Source of the DNA: Haemophilus parahaemolyticus | GTDB lineage: Bacteria > Pseudomonadota > Gammaproteobacteria > Enterobacterales > Pasteurellaceae | NCBI RefSeq assembly: GCF_002015035.1 | Contig: NZ_MUXY01000002.1 | Location: 27,312-91,311 of the forward strand | DNA: 64,000 nucleotides | Reading direction: 5' to 3' | Shown here: positions 7,418-61,658 of the stretch, piece after piece | Numbering within the stretch: the first letter of the stretch is position 1 | How the letters are laid out: each line of letters starts with the position of its first letter | Program-made: the position numbers and the translations under genes | The notes under the pieces: generated by a model | The model's input: the letters and a program-made list of their open reading frames with translations, nothing else | What the model was told of the DNA's origin: nothing | Databases searched by the model: none

Positions 7418-7861
7418 ATGACCCAATCCATTTGCATTATCACAGGCAGCACCTTAGGTGGTGCAGAATATGTTGCCGACCATCTTGAAAGTTGCTTAAC
7501 CGCCAAAGGCTTTAATGTTGAGCTTTTTAATCATGCAACGCTGGTAGACATTCAATCGCAACCCATTTTAATCGTGGTGACCTCAACCCACGGTGCAGGC
7601 GAACTGCCTGATAATATCAAACCTTTGTTTGAAGAGCTCGAAAATCAACCGCTTGATTTTAGCCAAATGAAGTTTGGTGTAGTTGGGCTTGGAAGCTCTG
7701 ATTACGACACCTTCTGCCACGCAGTGGATATTGTTGAAAATACTTTAAAGGCAAAAGGTGCAACACAGGTGTGCAACTCGGAGCGTATTGATACCGTGAC
7801 TAATTTTGAACACGACGAAACGGCAGAAAATTGGTTAGAAGGTTTTTTAGTTAAGTTATAA
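7418..7861 (+). CDS. mioC: Flavodoxin-like protein MioC
   Basis: Small FMN-binding protein of the flavodoxin fold, 147 residues, as in E. coli MioC, where it is linked to biotin synthase electron transfer. The N-terminal phosphate loop IITGSTLGGAEYVADHL, the FMN-contacting VVTSTHGAGELPDNI and the VGLGSSDYDTFC block are all present. The ATG at 7418 follows an AAAGGA site. In many gammaproteobacteria mioC lies close to oriC, but nothing here indicates an origin. An intrinsic terminator follows and marks the edge of the accessory island. Confidence 0.93.
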   Translation: MTQSICIITGSTLGGAEYVADHLESCLTAKGFNVELFNHATLVDIQSQPILIVVTSTHGAGELPDNIKPLFEELENQPLDFSQMKFGVVGLGSSDYDTFCHAVDIVENTLKAKGATQVCNSERIDTVTNFEHDETAENWLEGFLVKL

Positions 7862-7891
7862 GAGGTCAGATTTTTATTCTTTTTGCAAAAC

Positions 7892-7927
7892 AAAGCCCTC
7901 AGGACTTTCTAGCTCTGAGGGTTTTGT
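7892..7927 (+). terminator. Terminator of mioC
   Basis: CCCTCAG (7896-7902) pairs with CTGAGGG (7915-7921), followed by TTTTGTT. A near-copy lies at 10585-10617, on the far side of the vapBC/ATPase island. Confidence 0.8.
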
Positions 7928-8004
7928 TATATTAAATTTTGATTATAAATTATGCTAAATAAATTGTGTATACTTATAAAAACAAATATATACGGAGTAA
8001 TACT

Positions 8005-8244
8005 ATGATAACAAAAGTTTTTCAAAGTGGTTACAGCCAAGCAGTAAGAATTCCTGTTGATTTCCGTTTAGATGTAGATACAGTTGAAATTCTACACGGA
8101 GAAAATGGCGATATTATTTTGCGACCTTTTAAACCTAAAGCAGATATGGAATTTTTGGCTTTGTTTGAAGGATTTGATGAAGATTTTATTGAAACGTTAG
8201 AAAATCGAGATGTTGCACCGCCACAGGAGCGTGATTCATTATGA
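8005..8244 (+). CDS. vapB: Antitoxin VapB
   Basis: Antitoxin of a type II VapBC pair: it binds DNA through an AbrB/MazE-like N-terminal domain and neutralises the VapC RNase. The 79 residues start MITKVFQSGYSQAVRIPVDF, typical of VapB, and end with an acidic toxin-binding tail (ALFEGFDEDFIETLENRD). I chose the ATG at 8005, preceded by GGAG, over an in-frame upstream start. A TGTGTATACT extended -10 sequence at 7965-7974 could be the promoter. The stop overlaps the vapC start by four bases. Its partner toxin is broken, so this is probably an orphan antitoxin. Confidence 0.88.
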   Translation: MITKVFQSGYSQAVRIPVDFRLDVDTVEILHGENGDIILRPFKPKADMEFLALFEGFDEDFIETLENRDVAPPQERDSL

Positions 8245-8613
8245 TTTATATGCTTGATACCAATATTTTGATTTATTTCATGAAAAATAGACCGCTTTCA
8301 GTTGCAGAAAAAGTGGCTCAACTCATACCTCAAGATCAGCTCGTGATGAGTTTTGTGACTTATGCCGAGTTACTTAAAGGTGCGAATGGTAGTGCGAACC
8401 CTGAAAAAGCACTAGAGAAAATCAACAAAATCACGCAACGTATTCCTATTGTTTATCCAAGATATCGAAATGTGCGAATATCTTAAAACAGCAAGGTACA
8501 CTGATTGACAGTAATGACTTATGGATTGCCTGTCATGCTTTGGCAATAAATGCGGTGTTGGTAAACCATAATATAAAAGAGGTTCAGAGGATTGGCAAAA
8601 TAAGTTAGGATGA
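8241..8613 (+). pseudogene. vapC: Broken VapC toxin (PIN-domain RNase)
   Basis: The first 70 or so residues (MIYMLDTNILIYFMKNRP..., YAELLKGA) carry the first acidic residues of the PIN active site. The frame then closes at 8486. The downstream half of the domain is readable in another frame as LKQQGTLIDSNDLWIACHAL and AVLVNHNIKE, and an original EDWQNKLG tail ends at 8613. Bases are missing near 8465-8490 and again near 8585, where the last acidic residue of the active site would be. The toxin is therefore inactive by sequence. Confidence 0.85.
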
Positions 8614-8694
8614 CTAGACTAGATTATATTAAACACTGTCTAAATATTATTTAAATGATATAATAAATAAAAGTTTATATTATGGAGATATAGT

Positions 8695-9978
8695 ATGTCT
8701 GATTATAAAATTACATCTATAAAAATTTTAGGATTCTGGGAAGAATACACTTGTAATAATAAATTCAATGATGATATTAATATTATTATAGGTAGAAACG
8801 GATCTGGAAAAACTACTTTTATGAACATTCTACATGCTGCTTTATCTATTGACATGCTTGAATTAAGTGAAAGTGAATTTCAAGAAATAAATATAACATT
8901 AGAAAACACCCATAGAACTGCATTTATACAAATTATAAAGAATGACTTAGATGAAGAAAAAATACCAACAATCACATATAAAATAGATAGTATAGAATAT
9001 ACACTTCCAATCCTTAGTGAGGGAAGAAGTCTATTTATTCGAAAAAGGATACAAGAGCGTTATATCGACTTACAAGAACATATGAATCAATATGTAAAAT
9101 TATATTCTCTATCAGTCTATAGAAATAAAAACAATTATAAATACGAAAGAGACAAAAATGAATTATACAAAAAAGGAATTTCATCATCCATAGATTACTA
9201 TTTAGATGAATTACTATCTCAATTTAGTAAATATCAACTTGAACTTACTCAACAGTCTCAAACCATATCAGAGCAACTACAAAAAGACGTTCTATTATCT
9301 CTTCTAGACACCAATAAAAGGGCAATTAAACGTATTGCTAATAAGGAAAGTGAAAGACAAAAATTAAAAAGAACTTATAAGCGTTTTGGATTCAATGACA
9401 AGGATACAGAACATAAAATAGACAATTACATTAATACCGTTTTTGATGAAATTGAAACAATAGAATTGTTTAAGAAAAAAAGCGGAATTAATGATGATTT
9501 TGAAATTCCATCCCAAGCAATTATAACAAAACAAATATTTGATAAAATCATAGAATTATCTAGTGAAGCAGAGGCAAAAAATGAGAAAATATTTTCTAAC
9601 AATAACTTATTTTTAGACACTCTATCTAAATTTACAGATAAACGTTTCAAGCTAAACAAAGGAGAATTAAACTTTGTTAAAAATGATAAAATACCAATAT
9701 CACTATTTAAGCTATCCTCTGGAGAAAAACAATTATTAATATTACTAATCGAAACATTATTACAAAGAAAAGAGCGTTGTATCTTTCTTGCTGATGAGCC
9801 AGAAATATCTTTACATATCGAATGGCAAAGAGAAATTATTTCTTCTGTTTTAGCTTTAAATCCCAATGCTCAGATAATTGTTGCAACACATTCACCTGAA
9901 ATCGCAGGTAAACATAAAAGTAAAATTATTAAGATGAATGACATTCGTGAATTGACAGGCTTTATACATGAAAGATGA
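8695..9978 (+). CDS. ABC/SMC-type AAA ATPase, candidate AriA-like subunit of a defence system
   Basis: A 427-residue ATPase of the AAA_15/AAA_21 (OLD-like) group. Walker A GRNGSGKT is at 33-40, the ABC signature SSGEKQ at 341-346, Walker B FLADEPE near 364-370 and the switch histidine in THSPE at 398-402. The middle is rich in Lys, Asn and Glu and probably helical/coiled coil. GGAG precedes the ATG. It overlaps the following DUF4435 gene by 11 bases, so the two are surely co-translated. ATPase + DUF4435 is the architecture of PARIS (AriA/AriB) anti-phage systems; that role is inferred here. Base composition is far more AT-rich than the flanking core genes. Confidence 0.85.
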   Translation: MSDYKITSIKILGFWEEYTCNNKFNDDINIIIGRNGSGKTTFMNILHAALSIDMLELSESEFQEINITLENTHRTAFIQIIKNDLDEEKIPTITYKIDSIEYTLPILSEGRSLFIRKRIQERYIDLQEHMNQYVKLYSLSVYRNKNNYKYERDKNELYKKGISSSIDYYLDELLSQFSKYQLELTQQSQTISEQLQKDVLLSLLDTNKRAIKRIANKESERQKLKRTYKRFGFNDKDTEHKIDNYINTVFDEIETIELFKKKSGINDDFEIPSQAIITKQIFDKIIELSSEAEAKNEKIFSNNNLFLDTLSKFTDKRFKLNKGELNFVKNDKIPISLFKLSSGEKQLLILLIETLLQRKERCIFLADEPEISLHIEWQREIISSVLALNPNAQIIVATHSPEIAGKHKSKIIKMNDIRELTGFIHER

Positions 9979-10573
9979 TTTAGAATACTCTCTTGATGCA
10001 GAAAATAGCTTATCCGAATTTACTGAAACAGATTATATCGTTTATGTTGAGGATAAAAATGATGAGTTCTTTTGGGGAAAAATATTCTCTATATTCTCTA
10101 AAAGAAAAACTTTCAGCTTTAGATATGAGGAAAATATCACGGGATGTAGTATTCTAGATGAAAAAATCGAGCAAATAAAATCAGGTAAGTTAAATAATTC
10201 TATTATAGTTGCTCGAGATTCTGATTATTTAGAATATCACAATAAAAAAACATTTCATAAGAATATCCTATATACCTATGGGCATTCTATTGAAAATTGT
10301 TTATTCTCTAAAATTGCTTTAGATTTAATAATTGAAAACTACTCTAGAGGGAAAATATCCAAGAAGGAAATTAACATCTGGTCACAAAACATACACGATC
10401 AATTACAGGAATTAATTAAGTTAGATATTATTCTTCAATTTGAGCAAAGAGGTATTCAGGTACTAGGTAATTCATGTGATAGATTTCTTACTAGTTTTAT
10501 ACTACTAGATAAAACCCTAGAAATAGATAATGAACGTATAGACTATTATTCCGACTTATGCTCACTCTTATAA
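9968..10573 (+). CDS. DUF4435 (TOPRIM-like) protein, candidate AriB-like effector
   Basis: 201 residues with the DUF4435 signature in order: VYVEDKNDEFFW with the likely catalytic Glu at 28, IIVARDSDY with the Asp pair at 84 and 86, and YGHSIEN at 104-110. Glu plus DxD is the metal-binding pattern of TOPRIM nucleases. Known AriB proteins are about 300 residues, so this one is short; it ends close to a terminator and may be truncated or a compact variant. It overlaps the ATPase gene by 11 bases. If the pair works like PARIS, the ATPase would hold this protein inactive until a phage protein triggers its release. Confidence 0.75.
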   Translation: MKDDLEYSLDAENSLSEFTETDYIVYVEDKNDEFFWGKIFSIFSKRKTFSFRYEENITGCSILDEKIEQIKSGKLNNSIIVARDSDYLEYHNKKTFHKNILYTYGHSIENCLFSKIALDLIIENYSRGKISKKEINIWSQNIHDQLQELIKLDIILQFEQRGIQVLGNSCDRFLTSFILLDKTLEIDNERIDYYSDLCSLL

Positions 10574-10584
10574 GGCATTAGGAC

Positions 10585-10617
10585 AAAGCTCTCAGGACTT
10601 TAAGCTCTGAGGGCTTT
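10585..10617. terminator. Bidirectional terminator between the defence pair and rpoC
   Basis: AAAGCTCTCAG pairs with CTGAGGGCTTT. It is followed by T's on both strands, so it can serve both the plus-strand island genes and rpoC coming from the right. It is nearly identical to the mioC terminator at 7892-7927. Confidence 0.75.
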
Positions 10618-10630
10618 TCTATCTCTTAAC

Positions 10631-10649
10631 GGTGGGCTTTTAGCCCACC
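10631..10649 (-). terminator. Hairpin after rpoC
   Basis: GGTGGGC-TTTTA-GCCCACC, eight bases past the rpoC stop codon. It lacks its own T-run on the minus strand, so it may be an RNA-stabilising stem placed ahead of the stronger terminator at 10585-10617. Confidence 0.5.
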
Positions 10650-10656
10650 TTCTGGA

Positions 10657-13600
10657 TTACTCTTCCGCTTCCATTTCTGCGTTTAACAACGCAGCTAAAC
10701 TTTGCGTTGCATCATCAGCCACGAATTCAAATTCGGCTTCGATGTCAGCATCAGTAGCAAAGCTGTTAGTTGGATTTGCAAAAGTTTCTGCAAAATCAAC
10801 CGCTTGTCCTGCAGCTGCCGCAGCACGTTTTTCTGCACGTGCTTTGTGGTAAGCAAAACCTGTACCCGCTGGGATTAAACGACCCACGATGACGTTCTCT
10901 TTCAAGCCACGTAATTCGTCTTGTTTACCCGCCACCGCTGCTTCAGTTAATACGCGTGTAGTTTCTTGGAACGATGCTGCTGAGATAAATGACTCAGTCG
11001 CAAGTGATGCTTTGGTGATACCAAGCAATTCACGTTCAAATTCTACCAACGGTTTGCCTTCGGCTGCACGTTTGCGGTTCGCAATTTTCACGCGTGCCAC
11101 TTCCACTTGTTCCCCTTCAAGGAATTCTGAGTCGTAAGCGTTGGTGATGATGGCTTTACGCAACATTTGGCGAACGATAACTTCGATATGTTTATCGTTA
11201 ATTTTTACCCCTTGTAAGCGGTAAACTTCTTGTACTTCGTTCACAATGTAGTTAGTTACTGCGTGTACACCGCGTAAACGTAAGATATCGTGTGGCGTTT
11301 CTGCACCATCAGAGATTACGTCACCACGTTGTACCATTTCGCCTTCAAATACGTTGAGCTGACGCCATTTTGGAATCATTTCTTCGTATGCTTCGCCCTC
11401 TGCAGGAGTGATTACTAAGCGACGTTTACCTTTGGTTTCTTTACCGAATGAAACGATACCTGAGATTTCCGCAAGGATTGCTGGTTCTTTCGGTTTACGT
11501 GCTTCGAATAAGTCTGCAACACGTGGAAGACCACCGGTAATATCTTTCGTACCCACAGATTCTTGTGGAATACGTGCTAACGCTTCACCCACGCCAATTT
11601 CTGCACCGTCGTCAAGCGTTACGATTGCTTTACCTGGTAAGAAGTATTGTGCTGGAACATCTGTGCCAGGGATTAAGATATCATTACCGTTTGCATCCAC
11701 TAAGCGTAATGCTGGACGTAAATCTTTACCTGCAGTTGCACGTTCACCCACATCTTGTACCACGATAGATGATAAACCTGTTAATTCATCAGTTTGACGA
11801 GTAACGGTTAAACCATCGACGATGTCGCTGAATTGGATGCGACCTGATACCTCTGAGATAACAGGCATAGTATGCGGATCCCAGTTTGCAACTACTTCGC
11901 CTACTGCCACTTCATCGCCGTCGTGTTTAGAAAGCACTGCACCGTAAGGGACTTTATAGTTCTCTTTGGTACGACCGAAGGTGTCGATCACGGTTAATTC
12001 AGTGTTACGTGAAGTTAATACCAACTTGCCATCTTTGTTAGTAACGAATTTCGCATTTGCTAACTTAATAGTACCGTTATTTTTCACTTGTACGCTAGAC
12101 TCTTTGGCTGCCGCAGATGCCGCACCACCGATGTGGAACGTACGCATCGTTAACTGTGTACCTGGTTCACCGATTGATTGCGCTGCGATAACACCCACCG
12201 CTTCACCTTGGTTGATCAAGTGACCACGTGCCAAGTCACGGCCGTAACATTTCGCACACACACCGAAGTCGGTATCACAAGTTACTACTGAACGTACTTT
12301 GATGCTATCTACAGAGTTTTCGTCGATTACATCACACCATTTTTCGTCGATTAAGGTGTTACGTGGAATTAATACTTCTTCTGAACCTGGTTTTAATACG
12401 TCTTCAGCCGCTACACGACCTAATACTAATTCGCGTAATGGTACTTTTTCATCACCACCTTCAATGTGAGGCGTCATTACGATACCTTCTGAAGTACCAC
12501 AATCGTCTTCGATGATTACTAAGTCTTGTGCTACGTCTACTAAACGACGCGTTAAGTAACCAGAGTTCGCCGTTTTCAACGCCGTATCGGCAAGACCTTT
12601 ACGTGCACCGTGGGTTGAAATAAAGTACTGAAGAACGTTCAAGCCTTCACGGAAGTTTGCCGTAATTGGGGTTTCGATGATCGAGCCATCTGGACGAGCC
12701 ATCAAACCACGCATACCTGCTAACTGACGAATCTGTGCTGCAGAACCACGTGCACCAGAGTCCGCCATCATAAAGATGCTGTTGAATGAAGCTTGTTTTT
12801 CTGGGTTACCTTCACGGTTAATCACTTCTTCCGTTGAAAGGTTATCCATCATCGCTTTTGCCACGCGTTCGTTCGCCGCTGCCCAAATATCGATTACTTT
12901 GTTATAACGTTCGCCTGCGGTTACTAAACCTGAGTTAAATTGCTCTTGGATCTCAGCAACTTCAGCTTCTGCTGCACGGATGATCTCTTCTTTTTGTGCT
13001 GGGATCACCATATCGTTGATACCCACTGATGCACCAGAACGTGCCGCATATGCGAAACCTGTATACATTACTTGGTCAGCAAGTAATACAGATTCTTTCA
13101 AGCCTAAACGACGGTAACATTCGTTAATAAGCTTAGAAATCGCTTTTTTACCTAACGTTTGGTTGAACAATTTGTATGGCATACCTTTCGGTGCGATCAT
13201 CCATAAAATTGCACGACCAACTGTGGTATCGATCAATGAAGTTTTTGGCTCAAATTCGCCCACTTCATTTTTCACATATTCAGTAATACGTACTTTAACA
13301 CGTGAGTGTAACTCTGCTTGACCTGTGCGATACGCTTTTTCCGCTTCGCGAGGGTCTAAGAAGTACATTCCTTCACCTTTACCGTTTACTTTCTCACGCG
13401 TCATATAGTACAAACCTAATACAACGTCTTGAGATGGAACGATAATTGGGTCACCACTTGCTGGTGAAAGTACGTTGTTGGTTGACATCATTAACGCACG
13501 TGCTTCTAACTGTGCTTCTAACGTTAATGGAACGTGAACCGCCATTTGGTCACCATCGAAGTCCGCGTTGAACGCCGCACAAACAAGTGGGTGTAGCTGG

Positions 13601-14943
13601 ATTGCTTTACCTTCGATAAGAATTGGCTCAAACGCTTGAATACCTAAACGGTGAAGAGTTGGCGCACGGTTTAGAAGAATCGGGTGTTCGCGGATAACTT
13701 CTGCAAGAATATCCCATACGATCGGTTCTTCACGCTCAACCATTTTCTTCGCAGCTTTAATTGTTGATGCAATACCACGAGATTCTAATTTTGAATAAAT
13801 AAATGGACGGAATAATTCCAATGCCATTTTTTTCGGTAAACCACATTGGTGAAGACGTAAGTATGGACCTACGGTAATTACCGAACGACCTGAATAGTCA
13901 ACACGTTTACCTAACAAGTTTTGACGGAAACGACCTTGTTTACCTTTGATCATATCTGCCAAAGATTTTAATGGACGTTTGTTTGAACCTGTAATTGCAC
14001 GACCACGACGACCGTTGTCTAATAACGCATCCACAGATTCTTGCAACATACGTTTTTCGTTACGTACGATGATATCTGGTGCTACGAGGTCTAATAAGCG
14101 TTTTAAACGGTTATTACGGTTGATCACACGACGGTATAAATCGTTCAGATCTGATGTCGCAAAACGACCACCATCAAGTGGTACTAATGGACGTAAATCT
14201 GGTGGAAGCACTGGTAACACAGTCATTACCATCCACTCTGGTTTGTTGCCAGATTGTTGGAATGCTTCTAATAGTTTTAAGCGTTTCGTGATTTTTTTGC
14301 GTTTGGTTTCAGAGTTAGTTTCTTGTAACTCTTCACGCATCATCTCACATTGGTGCTCTAAATCCATATCGCGTAATAACGCTTGGATACCTTCTGCACC
14401 CATTTTCGCATCGAACTCATCACCCCAACGCTCTTCCGCGTCTATGAACTGTTCTTCAGTTAATAACTGACCTTTTTCTAAATCAGTCATACCTGGTTCT
14501 GTTACCACATAGCTTTCGAAATAAAGCACACGTTCAATATCACGCAATGGCATATCTAAAATCAAACCGATACGGGACGGTAATGATTTTAAGAACCAGA
14601 TGTGTGCCACAGGGCAAGCTAATTCGATATGACCCATACGATCACGACGAACTTTAGTTTGGGTTACTTCAACGCCACATTTTTCACAAATTACACCGCG
14701 GTGTTTTAAGCGTTTGTATTTGCCACATAAACATTCGTAATCTTTTACCGGCCCGAAAATACGTGCACAGAAAAGACCATCACGCTCAGGTTTGAAGGTA
14801 CGGTAGTTGATGGTTTCTGGTTTTTTGACTTCACCAAAAGACCAAGAACGAATCTTATCTGGTGAGGCTAAACCGATTTTAATTACATCAAAATCATCAT
14901 TTGATTTAGATTGTGCTTTTAAAAACTTAACTAAGTCTTTCAC
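10657..14943 (-). CDS. rpoC: RNA polymerase beta' subunit RpoC
   Basis: Catalytic subunit of RNA polymerase, 1428 residues against 1407 in E. coli. Visible landmarks are the N-terminal zinc-binding [20 protein letters not shown] (about 70-89), the catalytic NADFDGDQM holding the Mg-binding aspartates, the second zinc site [19 protein letters not shown] and the trigger-loop region [13 protein letters not shown]. The C-terminal tail ([14 protein letters not shown]...) is slightly longer than the enteric form. It lies downstream of rpoB, separated by 261 bases that contain several palindromes. Confidence 0.99.
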
Positions 14944-57715: not shown

Positions 57716-58030
57716 TTACGCCCAAAGTTTCTCAAGTTGATACATTTCACGGGCATCAGCTTGCAATAAATGCACAATTGCTTGTCCGAAATCCACTACA
57801 ATCCAATCGGCAACCGCTTTACCTTCATCACCAAACACTTCAAAACCAGCTTGTTTTGCCTCTTGAGCTAAACGATCTGCGGTTGAAGCCACGTGACGCA
57901 CCGATGTACCTGTGGCAATAATCATTGCATCGGTAATGCTCGATTTACCTTTCACATCAATCGCTAAAATATCTTGTGCTTTTAAATCATCTAAAGTTTT
58001 GGTTAAAAATTCGACTAAATTTTGTTCCAT
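57716..58030 (-). CDS. rsfS: Ribosome silencing factor RsfS
   Basis: 104 residues (DILAIDVKGKSSITDAMIIA, GTSVRHVASTADRL, DWIVVDFGQAIVHLLQADAR). It binds L14 and blocks subunit joining in starvation. It is the first gene of the rsfS-rlmH-mrdA-rodA-rlpA-dacA run, the same order as E. coli ybeB-ybeA-mrdA-mrdB-rlpA-dacA. Confidence 0.97.
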   Translation of the reverse strand: MEQNLVEFLTKTLDDLKAQDILAIDVKGKSSITDAMIIATGTSVRHVASTADRLAQEAKQAGFEVFGDEGKAVADWIVVDFGQAIVHLLQADAREMYQLEKLWA

Positions 58031-58176
58031 GGTTTTTCCGTTATTATTCTGTAAAAGTTTTAAATTCTACCATAGATTAAAAAGGGATAAAAAAATAAGC
58101 GGTCAGTGTTTGCAAATTTTTTGAAAAATCAAACCAATTGAACCTAATTGTACTGGTCTGTCTACAAGAGTTTTTC

Positions 58177-58206
58177 TTGTCAAAAATGTTACAGTTCTAT
58201 TAAAAT
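58177..58206 (+). promoter_or_regulatory. Promoter of the microcin-like operon
   Basis: TTGTCA (58177-58182), an 18-base spacer and TAAAAT (58201-58206). The Fur-like box begins about four bases past the predicted start site. Confidence 0.55.
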
Positions 58207-58216
58207 CAAATTATTT

Positions 58217-58235
58217 ACAAATAATTCTCATTATA
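58217..58235. promoter_or_regulatory. Fur-like box in front of the microcin-like operon
   Basis: ACAAATAATTCTCATTATA. The ATTCTCATTAT half fits the Fur consensus well, the left half less so. ATTATTT-AC-AAATAAT (58210-58225) is a further perfect dyad next to it. Lying just downstream of the -10 box it is placed for repression by Fur with iron. Fur binding is an inference. Confidence 0.45.
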
Positions 58236-58248
58236 AAAAGGGAAAGGA

Positions 58249-58506
58249 ATGTCAGATGTAATACTTTTAATATTAGTTTCATTAACATCTACTTTTATGA
58301 TAAAGATATTTAAATTTTTTAAACTAAACCTTATGAAGACTATTTTTTTATGTTCTATTTCTAATATAGGAATTATCTTCATAAGAGTTTATTTTTATTG
58401 GGAACTAAAAGTAAACAGAACAGCAATAGAAATACTAGCATATAGTATTGTCTTCTCTCTAATATTAGTTCCAATTTTAATATCCATGTACAGAAATACT
58501 AAATAA
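58249..58506 (+). CDS. Small membrane protein, candidate microcin immunity protein
   Basis: 85 residues with three hydrophobic segments at about 3-20, 32-50 and 58-79, joined by short basic loops; very Ile/Phe/Leu-rich. The ATG follows GGGAAAGGA. It starts the operon and precedes a double-glycine-leader peptide gene by 16 bases. In known class II microcin operons (cvi-cvaC, mceB-mceA, mchI-mchB) a membrane-bound immunity protein of this size lies just upstream of the microcin gene. No sequence family is recognised, so the role rests on size, topology and position. Confidence 0.6.
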   Translation: MSDVILLILVSLTSTFMIKIFKFFKLNLMKTIFLCSISNIGIIFIRVYFYWELKVNRTAIEILAYSIVFSLILVPILISMYRNTK

Positions 58507-58522
58507 TTTAATCGAGGTTTAA

Positions 58523-58900
58523 ATGAAAGAATTAGATATAAAAGACTATCAATTAGTTACTGGTGGCGGAGCTTTTTTTACGAGAACAATACTTAACTCA
58601 GCAAGAACAGGAGCTGTACTTGGAGGAGCAGGTTATGTTACCGAACAAGCTCTTTTAGGTGAACCAATAACAGCCAAAGGTATTATTGGGTACTCTGCTG
58701 CAGGTGCAGTAGGCGATATAGCAACAGCTGCAAATGCAGCCATACGAGGGGCTGGATTTGCATCAGAGTTTGCTGGTGTTGCAGTTGGCAGCTCATTGAT
58801 AGGATTAGGCAATTCTATAAATAACTCTTTTAATAAGAACAGCAGCTCCATACAAAATAAATCAGGTTCAAATTATGCCGATGGTTGCGATTATTGCTAA
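58523..58900 (+). CDS. Candidate class II microcin precursor with double-glycine leader
   Basis: 125 residues. The first 15 (MKELDIKDYQLVTGG) fit the double-glycine leader pattern LxxxxLxxVxGG, to be cut after Gly15 by a C39-peptidase ABC exporter. The mature part of about 110 residues is Gly/Ala-rich with small-residue helices able to insert in membranes (GAVLGGAGYV, AAGAVGDIATAANAAIRGAG, FAGVAVGSSLIGLG), then a Ser/Asn-rich tail ending ADGCDYC with Cys122 and Cys125 as the only cysteines. CGAGG lies before the ATG. No exporter gene is in the window. It could instead be another class of secreted peptide. Confidence 0.65.
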   Translation: MKELDIKDYQLVTGGGAFFTRTILNSARTGAVLGGAGYVTEQALLGEPITAKGIIGYSAAGAVGDIATAANAAIRGAGFASEFAGVAVGSSLIGLGNSINNSFNKNSSSIQNKSGSNYADGCDYC

Positions 58901-59012
58901 TCAAGGGACTTCTTATGTTAATAGACTTTTCAATATCTCAAGATAATTTTAGTAAGAGAACTTATTTGGGCGCTCTCTTACTTAGGTATTCTAAAAATAG
59001 AATAGGCATGTA

Positions 59013-59048
59013 TAAAAGAAAGGGAATTCGTACTTCCTTTTCTTTTTT
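59013..59048 (+). terminator. Terminator of the microcin-like operon
   Basis: AAAAGAAAGGGAA / TTCCTTTTCTTTTTT, an A/T-rich stem ending in a T-run, about 110 bases past the peptide gene and just before the convergent mutS. Confidence 0.5.
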
Positions 59049-59063
59049 ATTTGATATAAATAT

Positions 59064-61658
59064 CTAATTTCCTCGTAATTTTTTCAATCTATAAAGCTCA
59101 TCTAATGCTTGACGAGGTGTTAATTCATCTGGCTCAATCTTACTCAATGCCAATTCCACGGCACTTTCTTGTGCAACAAGCGGTGGTTTTTCAACAACAT
59201 CTTGCGAAAAAAGTAAATCCGCCTGCGGGTTTTCTTCGCCCACTTTTTGTTGTTGGGAGAGTGTTTCCAAATGTGCCAAACGCTGTTTTGCTAAAGCAAT
59301 AACGGGTTTCGGCACGCCTGCCAACGCCGCCACAGCTAAGCCGTAACTTTTGCTTGCCGCACCCTCTTGCACGCAATGCATAAAGGCAATGGTATCGTTG
59401 TGTTCACGGGCATCTAAATGCACGTTCGCGACACCTTTAAGCTGATTCGGCAAGCTGGTTAGCTCAAAATAATGGGTCGCAAACAGAGTAAGGGATTGTG
59501 TTTTCTTCGCCAACCATTCTGCACACGCCCACGCCAGCGAAAGCCCATCGTAAGTGGACGTGCCACGCCCAATTTCATCAATCAGCACCAGACTGTTTTC
59601 TGTGGCTTGATGGAGAATGTTCGCCATTTCGGTCATCTCCACCATAAAGGTCGAACGCCCCGAAGCCAAATCATCGCTTGCCCCAATACGGGTGAAAATA
59701 CGGTCAATCGCACCGATTTCAGCACTCTCTGCAGGCACAAAACTACCGATATACGCCATCAGCGTGATCAACGCAATTTGACGCATATAGGTGCTTTTTC
59801 CTCCCATATTCGGGCCAGTTACCACCAACAAATGACGTTGAGCGTTCAGATAAATAGGGTTGGCAATAAACGGATCTTTAATCACCCGTTCCACTACAGG
59901 ATGGCGACCTTCTTTGATGTTGATAATGCGTTGCGGGCTGAAGGTTGGACGTACATACCCAAGATTTTCCGCACGTTCGGCAAGGTTTGCCAACACATCC
60001 AATTCGGCAAGCACCATTGCGGCTAATTGCAATTCGCCCAAGCGAGGCATTAACAAGTCAAACAATTCATCATAAAGTTGCTTTTCCAACGCCAATGATG
60101 CCCCTTTGGCTTTCAACACTTTGTCTTCGTAGGTCTTCAACTCGGGGATAATATAACGTTCCGCATTTTTGAGCGTTTGACGGCGCACGTAGTGAATCGG
60201 AGCTTTGTGTGCTTGCCCTTGACTAATTTGAATATAATAGCCGTGAACTGCATTAAAGCCGATTTTCAGCGTATCAATGCCCGTTGCTTCCCGCTCGCGG
60301 ATTTCCAAATCTTCTAAATATTGGGTAGCCCCTGCAGAAAGCGAACGCCATTCGTCTAGCTCCGCATTGTAGCCTTCAGCAATTACGCCACCGTCACGGA
60401 TCAGTTGCGGAGGATTTTCAATAATCGCCCGTTTAAGCAGATCCTCAAACTCATCAAAATTTGCTAATTGTGCCAGTAATTGATCTAAACTTGGAGTTAA
60501 TTGTTGCGAAAATTGCTGAATTTCAGGAATTTGTTCTAATGCGGAACGCAAGCGAGTGAAATCACGTGGACGTGCCGAACGCAACGCCACACGTGCCAAA
60601 ATTCGCTCCATATCACCTACGTTTTGCAACGCCTGTTGAAGCGGTGCAATTTGATCGCTTTTTTGCAAACTTTCAATAATATCCTGCCGCTCTTTGAGCT
60701 TTTTCACATCACGAATCGGTTGATGAATCCAACGTTTTAACAAGCGGCTGCCCATCGGGGTCACGCATTTATCCAAGACGGAAGCAAGGGTATTTTCCGT
60801 ACCGCCTGCAAGGTTTTGAGTGAGTTCTAAGTTGCGACGGGTTGCGGCATCAAGCAAGACTGTTTCGCTATTTTGCGAAAGATGAATACTGTTGATATGC
60901 GGCAATGCAGTGCGTTGTGTTTCTTGAGCGTAATGCAATAAACAACCTGCGGCACACAGTGCGGTGGTGGCTTTTTCCACGCCAAAACCTGCTAAACTTT
61001 GCGTACCAAATTGACGATTGAGCAACTGAATTGCCGTAGTCAGTTCAAACTCCCACACAGGACGACGGCGTAAACCTTTGTAATTATTCAGAATACCAGC
61101 GTAAGCAAAATCTTCCGCATAGAGAATTTCAGCAGGTTGCAGGCGTTGCAGTTCGGCACTTAACGCCTCTTGGCTTGGCAATTCACTAATCAAAAAACGC
61201 CCAGAAGCCATATCAAGCGTCGCAATTGCAAAAGTGCCTTTATGCTCATAAATTGCCGCAACTAAGTTGTCTTGTCGCTCAGGCAGTAATGCCTCATCAC
61301 TCACCGTACCTGGTGTAACAATGCGAACCACTTTGCGTTCTACAGGCCCTTTCGAGGCTGCGGGATCGCCAATCTGTTCACAAATTGCCACGCTCTCACC
61401 CAACGCCACTAATTTTGCCAGATAACCTTCCACTGCGTGATACGGCACGCCAGCCATCGGAATCGGCTCACCTGCTGATTGCCCACGTTTGGTCAGTGAA
61501 ATATCAAGCAATGCCGCAGCTTTCTTAGCATCATCATAAAAAAGCTCATAGAAGTCACCCATTCGATAGAAGAGTAAAATATCAGGATTTTGGGCTTTGA
61601 GTTGCAGATATTGCACCATCATTGGCGTGTGGTTAGAAAGGTCTTGAGTTACGGTCAT
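59064..61658 (-). CDS. mutS: DNA mismatch repair protein MutS
   Basis: Mismatch-recognition ATPase, 864 residues. The mismatch-binding Phe-X-Glu appears in [20 protein letters not shown], the Walker A loop is [13 protein letters not shown] near 613, Walker B is [16 protein letters not shown], and the H-loop is [11 protein letters not shown]. The C-terminal tetramer region ends in [17 protein letters not shown]. Confidence 0.98.

Follow-up and report, generated by a model that had tools for sequence, protein, structure and literature searches.

Two small open reading frames lie between the core genes rsfS and mutS in the analysed 64-kb stretch of DNA (hereafter the window), and they raise the question of what kind of system they encode. 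The preliminary description took them for a two-gene operon of an uncharacterised Pasteurellaceae microcin and its immunity protein. As can be seen in Table 1, both frames sit where they were claimed to be; the locus also contains two elements overlooked in the first reading, a terminator-like hairpin and, directly 3' of the peptide gene, remnants of a gene for a JmjC-type oxygenase. The pair is most probably the remainder of a decayed microcin cassette of the order membrane protein–precursor–JmjC, in the intact relatives of which the oxygenase would act on the C-terminal tail of the precursor.

Table 1. Features of the rsfS-mutS locus, in window coordinates.
Feature	Position	Strand	Basis
rsfS (ribosomal silencing factor), core flank	57716..58030	-	ORF; tblastn relatives
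Sigma-70-like promoter TTGTCA-18-TAAAAT	58177..58206	+	10/12 matches
Fur-like box, weak	58217..58235	.	13/19 classical, 14/19 AATGAGAAT-type
85-aa three-segment membrane protein, presumed immunity	58249..58506	+	ORF; Kyte-Doolittle; E 4e-9 to L085 82-aa partner
125-aa double-glycine-leader microcin-like precursor	58523..58900	+	ORF; homology; alignment with relatives
Leader peptide MKELDIKDYQLVTGG	58523..58567	+	Sequence; aligned with relatives
C-terminal two-tyrosine tail NKSGSNYADGCDYC	58856..58897	+	Common to JmjC-linked peptides of other genera
Remnant of JmjC oxygenase 5' end, 14 codons	58915..58956	+	Shuffle test; suggestive alone
Remnant of JmjC 3' end, 17 codons and stop, other frame	58952..59005	+	Shuffle test
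Intrinsic terminator-like hairpin, operon end	59014..59046	+	1 found, 0.5 +/- 0.8 expected
mutS, core flank	59064..61658	-	ORF; similarity to relatives

The flanking genes rlmH, rsfS and mutS were confirmed as open reading frames with similarity to relatives, and the pair thus has the core neighbours ascribed to it. The encoded RsfS is identical in 95% of amino acids to that of Haemophilus sputorum and in 92-93% to those of four Actinobacillus species (tblastn). The best DNA match of the rlmH-rsfS segment among 140 Pasteurellaceae genomes is just 83%; therefore the source species is absent from this set. The interval between the core genes (58031-59063) has a GC content of 30.4% vs 41.1% for the whole window. 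The word TAAGCGGTC at 58096-58104, between rsfS and the pair, resembles the Pasteurellaceae DNA uptake word, and AAGCGGTC is present in 24 copies in the window, both strands counted.

The 85-residue protein shows three hydrophobic stretches on the Kyte-Doolittle scale (residues 3-21, 27-45 and 62-80), in agreement with the three membrane segments described before. The precursor begins with a double-glycine leader of about 15 residues, which aligns with the leaders of 17 selected relatives. The core following the GG comprises 110 residues, of which 33.6% are Gly or Ala, as the earlier term Gly/Ala-rich implied, and it closes with a Ser/Asn-rich stretch followed by NKSGSNYADGCDYC; the Cys-X-X-Cys end that had been noted is found there as CDYC. 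The mature peptide has an unmodified mass of 10.8 kDa, marginally over the 10 kDa that is the usual size limit of microcins, and its being larger than the usual class II microcins speaks against the assignment to a microcin cassette.

The regulatory signals turned out to be weaker than first claimed. The sigma-70-like promoter matches at 10 of 12 positions, yet the region contains six promoter-like sites, both strands counted, where 4.4 +/- 2.4 are expected, and their number is not above chance. The Fur-like box, from which iron control had been proposed, is not secure: its score against the classical consensus was equalled in 657 of 2000 shuffled 300-bp stretches, and that against the AATGAGAAT-type consensus in 136 of 5000 cases when the 218-bp region was shuffled by mononucleotides. 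A pattern built from the Fur-like site itself was circular and was set aside.

The peptide is a rare accessory gene and not a core one. At E<=0.01 it matches 8 of the 140 Pasteurellaceae genomes, and six of these were accepted (G036, G015, G009, G093, G094 and G004); the matches in G042 and G135 are partial and lie inside frames of 375 and 357 residues. The protein database at E<=1 contains two relatives of the peptide, P0001 (98% identity over the whole length, 12 member sequences) and the frameshifted P0002, and for the 85-residue protein the identical entry only. A profile search with the peptide, its scoring restricted to the 7994 candidates with the most words in common, gave at least 26 proteins (E<=1), whose names include Bibersteinia trehalosi, Mannheimia granulomatis, M. 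haemolytica, Actinobacillus lignieresii, [Pasteurella] mairii and Acinetobacter species. Neither Pfam nor NCBIfam gave a match over the cut-off for the window proteins, Rfam gave none, and a 108-residue relative of the peptide (L085) matches Bacteriocin_IIc and MccV only below the cut-off. Neither tblastn searches of plasmids and phages with the peptide nor scans of viral and genome contigs gave a relative, so that a phage or secretion component, named earlier as a conceivable other identity, was not met in any of these collections.

The site of insertion was compared as well. In 6 of the 65 named loci scanned mutS adjoins rsfS, with gaps of 159 to 980 bp, and no such pair is present in these six gaps among frames of at least 45 residues. 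No convincing repeats were seen at the insertion ends. In another genome (G052, locus L123) a gene for a 133-residue double-glycine peptide is grouped with genes for HlyD and a C39 exporter. Like the window pair, this cluster of GG peptides, HlyD and C39 exporter (7475-13637) adjoins rsfS on its upstream side and is divergent from it. Since its 133-residue peptide is of another type than that of the window, microcin-type cargo has probably reached the rsfS site more than once. A further cargo occupies the same interval in Actinobacillus genomosp. 2 (L003, 5304-5861), where the rsfS-mutS gap holds frames of 82 and 102 residues, by eye a RelE/HigB-type toxin and a helix-turn-helix antitoxin.

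A JmjC-type (PF08007) oxygenase is encoded in 5 of the 140 Pasteurellaceae genomes at E<=1e-15, and all five are among the six peptide genomes. C39 exporters of the CvaB-like group occur in four of these six (G036, G093, G094 and G004), either nearby or on a contig with cassette pieces; the C39 matches of the other two (G009 and G015) are weaker and far from the peptide. PF03412 as a whole is found in 42 of the 140 genomes, in many of them as longer HlyB-like frames, which are presumably RTX exporters. Together with the rarity of the peptide and the lack of any other family match in the collections searched, these exporters lend support to the earlier proposal that the pair encodes a putative Pasteurellaceae microcin, so far uncharacterised, and its immunity protein.

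The order of genes in L085 (genome G036) is as follows: a GG peptide, HlyD-like pieces, a 108-residue GG peptide, a 58-residue membrane protein, a 53-residue peptide, JmjC, an 82-residue membrane protein, a 124-residue peptide that is 53% identical to the window peptide, and a C39 ABC exporter. L088 and L092 carry membrane proteins, the peptide and JmjC, then HlyD and the C39 exporter. Peptide, JmjC, HlyD and C39 exporter are thus all close together in L085, L088 and L092; the domains were checked in one representative each (PF08007 in L080, PF03412 in L088, HlyD in L092). Membrane protein, peptide and JmjC are present in G009. There are signs that decay or assembly breaks are common among the relatives: the exporter and HlyD genes of G036 appear interrupted in this assembly, JmjC of G004 is broken up over two contig ends (possibly an assembly break), and G015 has a stop inside the peptide and no JmjC match.

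Several further observations concern these exporter loci. The Bibersteinia-type island as a whole (L085, 5336-15631) comprises several GG peptides, two HlyD pieces, an interrupted exporter and a lone immunity-like gene. GG peptides of L092 (7107-7334), L126 (4009-4236) and L131 (3416-3643) have in common the C-terminal tail [IV]TGGGI and form a second family of peptides associated with exporter loci of this type; the one in L092 matches outer-membrane beta-barrel models weakly. Leaders of the form MKEL(K/R)xCCL(H/N)(H/Y)VSGG are found on GG peptides of L085 (15284-15631), L128 (8309-8650) and L132 (4522-4860), that is, in Bibersteinia-, Actinobacillus minor- and Aggregatibacter-type genomes.

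Acinetobacter plasmids and one Neisseria gonorrhoeae record encode relatives of the JmjC protein at about 39% identity. In 369 class-level genomes none was found at 1e-20, an empty result that carries no weight without a positive genome in the set. One was found among 390 genomes of the order of G508, the same one being the only case among 163 genomes of the family of G881. Its locus (L144) has HlyD, a small hydrophobic frame, a GA-leader peptide ending with SGTSYNEAGTNYN, JmjC and a C39-type exporter, where HlyD, the small frame and the exporter were assigned by eye. In the N. gonorrhoeae JmjC-microcin locus (L105, 8300-13131) both precursor and exporter appear frame-disrupted.

When the JmjC genes of the relatives were compared with the window by tblastn, their C-terminus matched at 58958-58999 with 64% identity over 14 residues (E 0.27). 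The score of this match, 64, was reached by none of 3000 dinucleotide shuffles (maximum 42) in a test limited to the peptide-mutS interval, and it is unique among 1558 overlapping window tiles. The N-terminal match scores 39, a value attained in 13 of 3000 shuffles and in two other window tiles; it is the weaker evidence, suggestive and counting mainly by its place. The remnants total 31 codons vs 386 in L085, i.e. about 355 codons are missing. A 60-residue frame at 58885-59067 was given up in favour of the JmjC remnant. With remnants of both ends of the gene present, the window operon descends from the order membrane protein–peptide–JmjC. Judged from its sequence, the JmjC gene of the window has suffered a large internal deletion and is not functional, and the pair is a JmjC-linked member by descent. 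Consequently, the two-gene operon of the preliminary description is by descent a three-gene cassette. Its statement that the window lacks an exporter holds for all 64 kb, where neither a convincing JmjC gene beyond the remnant nor a C39 gene was found.

It is possible, if somewhat doubtful, that the pair continues to function as a microcin system for which the C39 exporter and JmjC are supplied from elsewhere in the genome. Both frames are open, and the 98% identical P0001 with its 12 member sequences indicates that the peptide persists in other records; this has to be set against the 64-kb window with nothing convincing of either helper beyond the remnant and against the frameshifted copy P0002, a sign of decay in the group.

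The decayed cassette is tied to its relatives also by the end of the peptide. The window peptide carries a C-terminal tail of the pattern Y-x(1-3)-[DA]G-x-[DN]Y, defined in this analysis, and the same pattern ends JmjC-adjacent peptides in Pasteurellaceae, Acinetobacter, Neisseria (frame-broken) and one further genome. While the family is highly variable in its cores, it is constant at this end: Gly115, Tyr118, Asp120, Gly121 and Tyr124 are invariant in an alignment of 18 chosen rows, from which nine of the 26 profile matches were left out as frameshifted, altered, truncated, partial or near-duplicate (P0002, P0011, P0013, P0015, P0018-P0021 and P0027). The JmjC-adjacent peptide of Acinetobacter ends with NDYCEDGGNY and that of N. 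gonorrhoeae with GYTDGTDYC, the latter in a frame other than that of the leader. The strict form of the pattern failed on L144, and the relaxed form was set after this locus had been seen; a rule of Asp or Asn always before the first tyrosine was rejected, as it failed on L144 and L105. In two lineages Gly or Ser occupies this position while neither tyrosine is lost, a slight argument for the tyrosines as the putative modified residues.

A scan of 1.527 Mb, overlapping loci included (161,646 stop-delimited frames), gave 12 distinct ends with the relaxed tail at the C-terminus, all of them in GG-peptide loci. Two of the 12, in the window and in G015, are without JmjC beyond remnants; since G015 has the tail (behind a stop) and no JmjC, the two can be parted. 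The tail is absent from all 20 frames of a leader scan at eight C39 loci without JmjC (L123, L126-L132), a small control, in which 14 of the frames are plausible GG peptides as judged by eye and the leader pattern, made for this analysis, missed some true peptides. JmjC loci, too, include GG peptides that lack the tail (one in L085, one in L092 and one in L105), and therefore one locus can hold both kinds; McbC (L104, JmjC incomplete) is likewise without the tail. The tail is located at the end of 19 of the 27 proteins collected. Tail-less at the end are P0002, P0013, P0015 and P0021, which are frameshifted, truncated or partial, and P0003, the membrane protein; P0011 has an altered tail with an extension, and in P0024 and P0027 further residues follow the tail.

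The closest solved structures to the L080 JmjC protein by sequence are NO66, MINA53 and L16 arginine hydroxylase. They share with it the domain (JmjC_2, PF08007) and the putative iron ligands, and the microcin JmjC differs from them in its genomic company and presumed substrate. The residues HWD (140-142) and H206 are invariant in all five JmjC proteins aligned; their role is assigned by analogy with the family, of which HWD...H is the iron-ligand pattern. Since the precursor is constant mainly in its leader and tail, the best explanation for an enzyme of this kind next to it is that the tail is the target, and we infer that the oxygenase modifies this conserved C-terminus.

The cassette would then operate as follows. 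Its first member would be an inner-membrane immunity protein. In intact relatives the JmjC iron/2-oxoglutarate oxygenase most likely modifies the two-tyrosine tail before export; the C39-peptidase ABC exporter would cut the precursor after GG and secrete the peptide. The tail would then serve uptake by the target cell, probably via a TonB-dependent iron receptor. At present the window locus most likely yields the immunity protein and unmodified precursor, unless the helpers are encoded elsewhere. A bolder conjecture, which we regard as rather unlikely, is that JmjC hydroxylates the tail (tyrosines to DOPA, or Asp/Asn to the beta-hydroxy form) and so creates an iron-binding siderophore mimic that opens catecholate receptors. 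If true, a ribosomally encoded siderophore mimic would make these peptides independent of the enterobactin on which class IIb microcins draw, and a single pair of tail and enzyme would be used with many unrelated killing cores in Pasteurellaceae, Moraxellaceae and Neisseriaceae.

The membrane protein of the window is related to the 82-residue partner of the closest relative peptide (L085; 29% identity, E 4e-9) and to a lone 82-residue protein elsewhere in L085 (E 5e-6), and it gives no match to the 58-residue partner of another peptide type; two 58-residue partners of that other type match each other (E 2e-5). In these four comparisons, which left out the partners in L088, L092 and G004, the type of membrane protein follows the type of peptide, as expected for immunity proteins, and the protective role is putative. 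A small membrane-type frame precedes the tail-bearing peptide in L080, L088, L092, L103 (76 residues) and L144 (86 residues, hydrophobic by eye), as well as two of the three tail-bearing peptides of L085. The unannotated 76-residue frame of L103 (5456-5686) stands directly ahead of the Acinetobacter peptide and is an immunity candidate alternative to the cupin.

These small frames bear on the idea that JmjC itself is the immunity factor, a role that has been proposed for McaB, and that the tail is a receptor-binding end recognised by JmjC or by the receptor. In Acinetobacter baumannii the cupin-like gene mcaB alone protects cells of a delta-mcc strain, which points to immunity rather than modification (PMC10333792). 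The recurrent membrane-type frame ahead of the tail peptides and the putative iron ligands conserved in 5/5 proteins argue against the transfer of this role to JmjC, and a pure immunity function is at odds with the cupin gene mctC being required for activity of Mcc1229 (PMC8853679); we consider the idea improbable.

It is quite unlikely that the peptide is a secreted signal (pheromone) and not a killer: double-glycine leaders are generally known on signalling peptides also, but the membrane protein varies with the peptide, several different peptides share one island (L085), and an inhibitory Acinetobacter system has the same gene order (PMC10333792). Low GC and small frames might suggest chance frames, or a phage, toxin-antitoxin or other known family, but the homologues keep their gene order across several genera, and this and the lack of a match to the window peptide in phage, plasmid and viral collections leave this explanation hardly any weight.

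The decayed-cassette interpretation can be set beside known systems. The mcaABCD locus of A. baumannii ATCC 17978 (Mcc17978) has the order microcin-cupin-HlyD-SunT, inhibits E. coli and Acinetobacter with entry via the catecholate receptors Fiu/PiuA, and is raised by low iron (PMC10333792). Like the family cassette, it has a small GG/GA-leader peptide with, after it, a cupin-like gene, HlyD and a SunT-type C39 exporter; the cupin is called an immunity protein there, and the available part of the paper mentions no C-terminal signature (PMC10333792). Compared with Mcc17978 by its description, the window has cupin/JmjC fragments only, no exporter nearby and an unrelated core. The Acinetobacter plasmid locus L103 combines the Mcc17978-like order with a JmjC that has 39% identity to its Pasteurellaceae counterpart and with a peptide bearing the two-tyrosine tail. 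The microcin-cupin-HlyD-SunT layout is thus already published.

The E. coli system Mcc1229 (mctABC) is similar in that it has an ABC transporter gene and needs the cupin-domain gene mctC, together with CirA and TonB for entry (PMC8853679). A plasmid record presumably related to it, judging by gene content (L106; ABC, cupin, DUF4440, DUF2164) has a 527-residue ABC protein as the transporter, and the 232-residue frame ahead of it has a Cys/Gly-rich end without the two-tyrosine tail. The window differs from the class II microcins MccV, MccE492 and MccH47 in the lack of a profile match, the larger core, the two-tyrosine tail and the JmjC of its relatives. It resembles them in the double-glycine leader, the immunity gene adjoining the structural gene and, for the relatives, C39 export (PMC10333792). 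Class IIb (siderophore) microcins are marked by a Ser/Gly-rich C-terminus together with siderophore-attaching enzymes; the window peptide has a Ser/Asn-rich stretch there and then NKSGSNYADGCDYC. McbC of Moraxella catarrhalis is likewise a GG peptide with HlyD- and CvaB-like genes, in another gene order (PMC2761928), and it lacks the tail; its plasmid (L104) has an incomplete 252-residue JmjC frame. In biphenomycin-type RiPPs (PbsQ, BpmG) a JmjC/cupin enzyme stands beside a ribosomal precursor, PbsQ hydroxylating ornithine, and precursors, partner enzymes and export are different (PMC12257519). A structural survey of RiPP recognition elements lists bacterial JmjC (PF08007) homologues in RiPP-like contexts, microcins being unnamed in the part available (PMC12710340).

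Among the open-access papers listed (12 of 630 in one case), none was recognised as dealing with the shared tail or with a JmjC-linked microcin in Pasteurellaceae, and none came up in which a Pasteurellaceae member of the peptide family is reported to kill or to confer immunity. Microcins outside Enterobacteriaceae are little known: of the Pasteurellaceae species covered by a microcin survey, only 1.5% had putative matches (PMC9746304). For proximity-dependent inhibition of Mannheimia haemolytica a bacteriocin is suspected by the authors, who place the gene(s) on the chromosome (PMC4956465). The Bibersteinia-type island is a possible candidate for the basis of this inhibition; G036 (L085), with such an island, is a B. 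trehalosi genome, of a strain different from that of the paper. The link between JmjC and the tail provides a searchable family signature and a concrete chemical question, and the window would be a record of the decay of such a cassette to immunity protein and precursor.
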